NCBI GenBank assembly: GCA_009838965.1
Contig: VXQP01000083.1
Coordinates: forward strand, 1 to 37,922
DNA from: Chloroflexota bacterium
Lineage (GTDB): Bacteria; Chloroflexota; Dehalococcoidia; Lucifugimonadales; Australimonadaceae
DNA: 37,922 nt
Reading direction: 5' to 3'
Below, in pieces: positions 1,172 through 24,344 of this stretch. The notes under the pieces were generated by a model. It saw nothing but the letters and a program-made list of their open reading frames with translations. It was not told the origin of the DNA and did no database searches. Each line of letters begins with the position of its first letter. Position 1 is the stretch's first letter. The position numbers and the translations under genes were made by a program.

Positions 1172-1633
1172 CTATCCCTGGAGCTTTGCCAGCTCTTCAC
1201 GGATGGCGTTGGGGTCGGGGAGGACGCCCTGGTAGGTCTCCCTGTAGCGAACGAGGCCATCCGGGTCGATTATGAAGATGGACCTGGCGCACATGCCGGA
1301 GTCCTCGTTGAAGATGCCGTATGCACGGGCGACTTCGCCGTGGGGCCAGAAATCGGACAGGAGCGAGTGGTTCAACCCGCCCAGGTTGGTCCCCCACGCC
1401 CTGAGGGCGGGGCGGGCGTCGGCGCCGAGGCCGAGGACACGTGCCCCCATCTCTTCGAACGACTTCAACGCACGGTTGAAGGTTGCGGTCTGGGTCGTTC
1501 AGCCGCCGGTGAATGCGGCGGGAAAGGAGTGGATGACGACCCACTTCTCGCCCTTGAAGCCGGCGAGGGAGACGTCCTCTCCGTTCTGGTCCTTGAGTGT
1601 GAAGTCCGGGGCTTGCTGGCCTACGTCGACCAT
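1172..1633 (-). CDS. Selenocysteine-containing peroxiredoxin (AhpC/TSA, AhpE-like)
   Basis: This 153-residue thiol/selenol peroxidase should reduce hydroperoxides in the cytoplasm. The start is ATG 1633, with AGGAGG 7 nt upstream. The N-terminus (VGQQAPDFTLKDQNGEDVSL) is classic AhpC/TSA. The active-site loop is FPAAFTGG-U-TTQ, where codon 45 is TGA (1501-1499). This matches the family motif P-x3-T-x2-C exactly, with P38, T42 and U45 in place of the peroxidatic Cys. Arg117 in MCARSIFIIDPDG is the conserved active-site Arg, and Cys115 beside it is the only Cys and could act as resolving residue. The frame is open on both sides of the TGA and stops at TAG 1174-1172. A SECIS-like hairpin follows at once, and tRNA-Sec is encoded at 24247-24344. 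A TGA sequencing error or pseudogene is possible but far less likely. Confidence 0.92.
1457..1501 (-). promoter_or_regulatory. Bacterial SECIS-like hairpin with Sec UGA codon
   Basis: The TGA occupies 1501-1499. An upper stem of seven perfect pairs (CTTCAAC 1481-1475 with GTTGAAG 1469-1463) closes the 5-nt loop CGTGC, with G as its second base. The loop begins 25 nt after the TGA. A lower stem pairs GAACGA (starting inside the TGA) with TCGTTC 1462-1457. This agrees with the general bacterial SECIS description: a short stem, a G in the first two loop positions, and about 16-37 nt from UGA to loop. SelB binding is inferred. Confidence 0.82.
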
Positions 1634-23786: not shown

Positions 23787-24116
23787 ATGGCGAAGCCCCA
23801 GCCCGTAACCGATGCCGATTTCGCGACGACCGTGCTCGAGAGCGACCAGCCGGTACTGGTCGACTTCTGGGCTGACTGGTGCGGCCCCTGCAAGATGATC
23901 GCGCCCGTGGTGGACGAACTCGCCGAGGAGTACGAGGGCCGCTTCGCGTTCGCCAAGCTGGACGTGGACTCCAACCCGCAGACGGCGATGCAGTTCGGCA
24001 TCCGCAGTATCCCGGCCCTGCTCCTGTTCAAGGACGGCAAGGTGGCCGAGAACGTCATCGGCGCGGTGCCGAAAGCCGTGCTCAAGAAGAAGATCGACAA
24101 GGTGCTCGAGGAGTAA
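23787..24116 (+). CDS. trxA: Thioredoxin
   Basis: This 109-residue thioredoxin has the active site FWADWCGPCKM (Cys32, Cys35), the cis-Pro loop SIPALLLFKDGK and the normal single-domain length. It is reduced by thioredoxin reductase (not in this window) and reduces ribonucleotide reductase, peroxiredoxins and other targets. I chose ATG 23787, because GGAGG lies 8 nt upstream; the in-frame TTG at 23760 is inferior. A TATACT at 23705-23710 may be its -10. The selC gene follows 130 bp later. It is a plausible reductant for the selenoperoxiredoxin, by inference only. Confidence 0.96.
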   Translation: MAKPQPVTDADFATTVLESDQPVLVDFWADWCGPCKMIAPVVDELAEEYEGRFAFAKLDVDSNPQTAMQFGIRSIPALLLFKDGKVAENVIGAVPKAVLKKKIDKVLEE

Positions 24117-24142
24117 GAACCTCCGCTCTCAAGTCGATAACG

Positions 24143-24176
24143 GGCGGCGCCTCTTCTTGCGTGAGGGGGCGCCGCC
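24143..24176 (+). terminator. Terminator after trxA
   Basis: A perfect 9-bp GC-rich stem (GGCGGCGCC at 24143-24151 with GGCGCCGCC at 24168-24176) closes a 16-nt loop, 26 nt past the trxA stop. The T-tract is weak, so it is an intrinsic-like terminator or 3'-end hairpin. Confidence 0.6.
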
Positions 24177-24222
24177 TGCGCCGTTAACTCTTCCTACACC
24201 AGCCAACGGGTCAGGCAGCCCT

Positions 24223-24228
24223 TATACT
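24223..24228 (+). promoter_or_regulatory. -10 element of selC
   Basis: TATACT lies 18 nt before the mature 5' end of tRNA-Sec, placing transcription start about 12 nt upstream of it. The same hexamer with similar flanks (TATACTGCGC) occurs before the amidohydrolase at 33269-34369. No clear -35 is seen. Confidence 0.45.
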
Positions 24229-24246: not shown

Positions 24247-24344
24247 GGGAGTGGATGGGTCCCGGTGGGTCTCGCGGTCTTCAAAACCGTTGCCGGGCCA
24301 GCTTCCTGGTTCGGGGAGGGTTCGACTCCCTCGCACTCCCGCCA
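24247..24344 (+). tRNA. selC: tRNA-Sec (anticodon UCA)
   Basis: This 98-nt tRNA decodes UGA as selenocysteine. The acceptor stem pairs 24247-24253 with 24334-24340; the eighth position is a G-G mismatch by my folding. The anticodon stem GCGGT/ACCGT (24274-24278 and 24286-24290) holds the loop CTTCAAA with anticodon TCA at 24281-24283. A long variable arm of 9 pairs, two of them G-U, spans 24293-24314. The T-arm GAGGG-TTCGACT-CCCTC spans 24316-24332. Discriminator G and an encoded CCA end the gene. Length, anticodon and variable arm together exclude tRNA-Ser, tRNA-Leu and a suppressor tRNA. Confidence 0.96.

Follow-up and report, generated by a model that had tools for sequence, protein, structure and literature searches.

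Introduction

In bacteria, SerRS charges tRNA-Sec with serine, SelA converts it to selenocysteine (Sec) using the selenophosphate supplied by SelD, and SelB delivers the product to UGA codons. Bacterial tRNA-Sec genes (selC; RF01852) are characterized by a UCA anticodon, a G73 discriminator, a long variable arm, 13 acceptor-plus-T-stem positions, and the companion genes selA, selB, and selD. The published layouts closest to the one reported here, as far as the available parts of the papers describe them, are selABC operons (PMC5330540) and selC genes nested in or overlapping selB (PMC8124441). The available parts of PMC5330540 also describe tRNA-Sec with 12 Watson-Crick pairs in the acceptor and T stems and seven residues between the T stem and G73, most of them bulged. 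Allo-tRNAs and selC-like tRNA-Cys have a long variable arm and an enlarged acceptor domain as well, with 8/4 or 9/3 stems and a non-UCA anticodon or Cys identity (U73), according to the available parts of PMC7609411. In Escherichia coli, the antideterminant box against EF-Tu consists of C7:G66, G49:U65, and C50:G64 (available parts of PMC9976931 and PMC11231383).

The DNA analyzed here comprises positions 1-37,922 of the forward strand of contig VXQP01000083.1 (37,922 nt in total, hereafter the window) from Chloroflexota bacterium GCA_009838965.1, which belongs to Dehalococcoidia; Lucifugimonadales; Australimonadaceae in GTDB. The genome is designated G000 and its family f1 of the order. Its tRNA-Sec shares the RF01852 features listed above and differs in having a G.G eighth acceptor position and a linkage to trxA instead of to sel genes. 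The order-wide trxA-selC pair and a U.U mismatch in the T stem of the order's tRNA-Sec are new. The pair is undescribed in the titles and abstract openings listed for open-licence papers on selC with trxA or thioredoxin, and in the available parts of PMC5330540, PMC1273633, and PMC8124441.

Identification of the tRNA-Sec Gene

ARAGORN calls a single tRNA in the window, tRNA-SeC(tca) (Table 1). RF01852 is the sole RNA family that Rfam finds in the window, matching 24247-24340 over model positions 1-91 with 69.9 bits (E 1.8e-12), above the gathering score of 47 bits. The minimum-energy fold contains a 7-bp acceptor stem, a 5-bp T stem, and a 9-bp variable arm (z -1.75). These results bear out the initial annotation, which had described a tRNA-Sec of 98 nt with a TCA anticodon and a 9-bp variable arm and had named ARAGORN and a Sec covariance model as the means of checking it. 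The discriminator G73 lies at 24341 and is followed by an encoded CCA. By length the geometry is 8+5, with eight residues in each acceptor strand and five T-stem pairs. In the D arm, the Rfam alignment threads a 6-bp stem with a 4-nt loop and three G-U pairs, and the energy fold breaks this stem. Close copies were identified in five congeners (RF01852, E ≤ 4e-14). Matches at E ≤ 1e-9 are present in 167 of the 197 genomes of the order and, taken as its marker, indicate that the Sec trait is common across the order.

On the 8+5 alignment, which the G.G reading of pair 8 presupposes, G24254 stands opposite G24333, as had been noted initially. The Rfam alignment deletes one acceptor position and pairs G24254 with C24332. 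This dropped position, and the existence of a 7/5 class that also occurs in Dehalogenimonas (available parts of PMC5330540), would be compatible with a 7/5 or 8/4 variant tRNA-Sec, another UCA-anticodon tRNA, or a pseudogene. Such an assignment is very improbable: the stretch from the T stem to G73 has eight residues rather than seven, the congeners carry the close copies mentioned above, and the tRNA has G73, a long variable arm, and its sel companions in the genome. The window tRNA resembles the published 12-bp forms in having only 12 Watson-Crick pairs, but sets eight residues opposite eight. Its 5-bp T stem and G73 also place it outside the 9/3, bulged 8/4, and U73 Cys classes. Judged from its sequence, selC is very probably a working bacterial tRNA-Sec gene with 8+5 geometry and a G.G junction, located in a trxA-selC pair kept across the order.

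Table 1. Positions of the features discussed in the text (window coordinates unless a contig is given).
Feature	Position	Strand	Evidence or remark
Selenoperoxiredoxin, in-frame TGA at 1499-1501 (AFTGGU)	1172..1633	-	Sequence comparison
Candidate SECIS hairpin, ~20 nt 3' of the TGA	1463..1481	-	Fold z -0.92, not significant alone
trxA, thioredoxin (WCGPC)	23787..24116	+	Pfam PF00085; synteny; directly upstream of selC
GC-rich terminator-like hairpin, stem 16 (one mismatch allowed), no T run	24140..24179	+	Between trxA and selC
TATACT, possible -10 box of selC	24223..24228	+	Word recurs in four congeneric genomes, 22-29 nt before selC
selC, tRNA-Sec(UCA), 98 nt including encoded CCA	24247..24344	+	ARAGORN; RF01852; fold
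G, 5' half of eighth acceptor position	24254	+	Sequence; opposite G24333
Anticodon TCA	24281..24283	+	ARAGORN position 35
Variable arm, 9 bp with CTTC loop	24293..24314 (24293-24301/24306-24314)	+	Fold
G, 3' half of eighth acceptor position	24333	+	Sequence; opposite G24254
selD with one in-frame TGA	G000:C46:37313-38233 (L314)

Acceptor and T Stems of tRNA-Sec in the Order

The tRNA-Sec sequences of the order were aligned on the acceptor and T stems. A total of 131 were fetched from the 167 genomes with a match and 130 were used, L074 being left out for a T loop without TTC[GA]A. Mismatches at pairs 1-13 number 1, 0, 0, 0, 2, 0, 2, 80, 2, 76, 0, 2, and 0, respectively, with no more than two at any pair other than 8 and 10. 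Pair 8 is G.G in 80 of the 130 tRNAs, from 17 of 34 families, and pair 10, the second pair of the T stem, is U.U in 76 tRNAs from 27 of 34 families (e.g., L027, L028, and L030). All 13 members of family f1 have G.G at pair 8, together with a normal pair 10, either A-U or U-A. The window tRNA has A-U at pair 10 and thus lacks the order's U.U; this pair may have descended from U-A via U.U.

For comparison, a broad named sample covering Actinobacteria, Proteobacteria, Firmicutes, Planctomycetes, Acidobacteria, and others yielded 116 tRNAs from at least 117 loci, with organism names listed for 80 of the 117. The counts rest on the 99 tRNAs whose 3' acceptor strand has eight residues and in which six or all of the seven positions pair; the other 17 were dropped. 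Among the matches listed, 57 of the 99 have a non-canonical pair 8 (U.C 20, G.A 14, G.G 11, others 12), and only one, from the Chloroflexi genome L217, has U.U at pair 10. Mismatches in the remaining classes of the phylum occur at pair 8 in 11 of 28 and at pair 10 in none of 28. The class-level sample has mismatches in 7 of 17 at pair 8 and 0 of 17 at pair 10; its figures for pairs 1-8 are weak, with C.C at pair 7 in 8 of 17, probably because the 5' end is displaced or the tRNAs are of the 12-bp kind.

A Watson-Crick eighth pair is a textbook trait of bacterial tRNA-Sec, not a defining one, and is absent from the window tRNA. The initial annotation regarded the G.G pair as unusual, a view that the counts for the order and for the listed broad-sample tRNAs contradict. 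The same counts rule out G.G as an oddity of one lineage. Because pair 8 is broken broadly and U.U is nearly confined to the order, it is U.U rather than G.G that marks the order in these alignments, and the broken eighth pair is widespread in them. Within this known family the window tRNA is ordinary, and its eighth pair is unremarkable.

Pairs 8, 9, and 10 of the alignment correspond to the E. coli EF-Tu-rejection box, and the window G.G falls inside it. By analogy, mismatches at pairs 8 and 10 may serve EF-Tu rejection in this order too. Position 8 may tolerate, and perhaps favor, non-canonical pairs because tRNA-Sec need not bind EF-Tu.

Sec Machinery and Selenoperoxiredoxin

Profile searches of the genome's contigs identified selA on contig C28 (523.8 bits), selB on C19 (339 bits), and selD on C46 (386.5 bits, one in-frame TGA), all over the cut-off. 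With selC on C63, the four genes are all located on separate contigs, in contrast to the selABC operons, which contain the same Sec gene set (available parts of PMC5330540). The tRNA had been put forward as independent support for Sec decoding, with a search for selA, selB, and selD in the bin as the check, and all three are present. Its position apart from selA and selB was likewise described correctly, as trxA lies upstream and an ABC importer downstream. Judged by gene content, the genome decodes Sec. From its in-frame TGA, SelD is probably itself a selenoprotein. The window tRNA would receive serine from SerRS, SelA would convert it with SelD selenophosphate, and SelB would deliver it to UGA codons, for example in the peroxiredoxin gene and in selD.

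The selenoperoxiredoxin gene is located in the window. The codon corresponding to its in-frame TGA is TGA in each of the 12 best matches examined, and relatives at E ≤ 1e-20 were found in 151 of the 197 order genomes. The position of the candidate SECIS hairpin is kept in relatives, and its stem letters are changed in one genus; these features are suggestive of a SECIS at this TGA. The peroxiredoxin and selC lie on one contig, ~13 to 23 kb apart, in G000, G018, G053, G070, G131, and G139, all of family f1; in G106, also of f1, they are ~270 kb apart. The proposal that the peroxiredoxin is the likely client of the tRNA remains plausible, but it is not the sole client, since selD also has a TGA, and its co-location with selC was observed in family f1 only. 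A chimeric contig is ruled out, since G+C content is even across the window and the five relatives named above keep both genes on one contig.

In G043, a 5'-truncated selC (L394) that runs only from the anticodon arm to CCA lies behind trxA, and the TGA-containing peroxiredoxin is still present. This partial selC reflects either decay or an assembly fault.

Conservation of the trxA-selC Pair

In the window, 130 nt separate the end of trxA from the start of selC. Across the order, trxA is directly upstream of selC on the same strand at 112 of 130 loci, representing 30 of 34 families; families f27 and f32 also show the pair. Among the 18 loci without trxA, four have less than 500 nt of upstream sequence. 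In 14 genomes, selC is preceded by 1.2 kb or more of sequence, and the stretch read contains no trxA. The remaining window neighbors are kept at only 0-12 of the 130 loci. No outer neighbor of trxA is shared by more than 10 families, and no downstream neighbor of selC by more than four; antisense shadow ORFs inflate some of these outer clusters. A neighborhood conserved as a single block is ruled out by these figures. As in the selC genes nested in or overlapping selB (available parts of PMC8124441), selC is tied by short spacing to an upstream protein gene; here, however, the partner is trxA, which is not a Sec-machinery gene, and the reading frame is not overlapped.

Upstream of trxA, the most common further neighbor is an aminotransferase class V gene (cysteine desulfurase-like), as at L036, L121, and L126, and its ORF cluster occurs in 10 families. 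Such enzymes can supply SelD with selenium, so a link to Sec supply is conceivable.

The pair is rare outside the order, occurring at 2 of 18 class loci and 1 of 32 phylum loci, and at one of the 116 named loci among the matches listed (L217). The loci L267 (G463), L294 (G317), and L269 (G477) carry it and represent two further families of the class and one family from a different class. Its presence in these three genomes reflects either an old origin or repeated formation.

The linkage of trxA and selC is real, and two explanations were considered. The pair could be a selected functional unit, in which co-expression matches tRNA-Sec supply to that of thioredoxin, the reductant for the selenoperoxiredoxin and other selenoenzymes. 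The single-strand adjacency across 30 families, the poorly kept flanks, and the order-wide presence of the selenoperoxiredoxin are in its favor; the 14 selC genomes without trxA upstream weigh against it. The pair could instead represent old neutral synteny, two short, close genes being seldom split by rearrangement. Controls with other RNA genes bear on this explanation. With a single locus counted for each family, trxA is retained beside selC in 28 of 34 families; the corresponding figures for the best neighbor are 8 of 25 for tmRNA and 13 of 19 for RNase P RNA (26 of 30 loci used). By these controls, gene order in the order is not very fluid, and the retention of trxA beside selC is high but not without parallel. 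RNase P RNA, which likewise keeps one neighbor, agrees with neutral synteny, while the contrast with tmRNA and the shuffled gene order to either side of trxA-selC speak against it.

Genomes without detected selC are also informative. In six of them (G028, G031, G042, G054, G136, and G175), trxA is retained. G116 and G043 were scored as lacking selC and have a partial selC behind trxA, cut by the contig end in G116 and 5'-truncated in G043. In G106 (L404), a 1454-nt insertion separates the two genes, which are adjacent in other congeners. Dependence of trxA on Sec is ruled out by its retention in the genomes without selC; its product is, on this evidence, a general thioredoxin and not a Sec-only partner. 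The persistence of trxA without selC argues against a functional unit; this persistence and the unchanged place of trxA in G106 fit neutral synteny.

Transcription of trxA and selC

The distance from the trxA stop to the tRNA has a median of 73 nt and is at most 50 nt in 43 of 112 loci; the two negative values derive from one N stretch and one weak edge match. Of the 63 gaps that span 60 nt or more, 30 contain a stem with 13 or more pairs, compared with 1.3 expected from plain (not dinucleotide) shuffles. Nearly all of the 12 family f1 gaps examined contain a strong, GC-rich hairpin whose sequence varies; in 11 of the 12 the stem length is at least 11. A consensus scan of the window detected no full sigma-70 promoter and no terminator, and the hairpin behind trxA was not listed by it. 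Across the order, the sequence upstream of selC shows no excess of -10 boxes, with 24 cases (at most one mismatch) against 20.7 expected from the same kind of plain shuffles. No promoter common to all selC genes stood out over the shuffles.

The hairpin behind trxA and the kept TATACT (Table 1) make separate transcription of trxA and selC likely in the window and suggest it for the genus. The terminator-like hairpins, which suggest separate transcripts, thus favor neutral synteny and count against a functional unit. The gap is only 4 nt in three f34 genomes, which is consistent with a functional unit. Since a 4-nt gap leaves no room for a promoter, selC would most likely derive from the trxA transcript there, and in lineages with gaps of 4-20 nt it is probably cut out of that transcript.

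Overall, neutral synteny is the probable explanation and is more likely than a functional link between thioredoxin and Sec supply; a selected functional unit appears unlikely. Because trxA is kept without selC and is often separated from it by a hairpin, thioredoxin can only be proposed as a possible electron donor to the selenoperoxiredoxin. Still more doubtful is an order-wide redox-Sec unit, in which RNase P would cut tRNA-Sec from the 3' end of the trxA mRNA at short gaps, reductant and Sec-tRNA for the selenoperoxiredoxin would be made in step, and the EF-Tu box would have been rebuilt with G.G at pair 8 and U.U at pair 10.

Biological Significance

With these results, an uncultured clade gains a confirmed Sec gene set. 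They also correct the view of the eighth acceptor pair: a broken pair is no sign of an odd tRNA-Sec, being more frequent than an intact one among the broad-sample matches listed. Its location inside the EF-Tu-rejection box leads to a testable prediction on the means by which tRNA-Sec escapes EF-Tu in bacteria other than E. coli. For the selB-selC overlap, a link between SelB and tRNA-Sec has been proposed, which would be a parallel for trxA-selC if the pair is functional. In that case, gene order would tie the supply of thiol redox power to the supply of selenocysteine.
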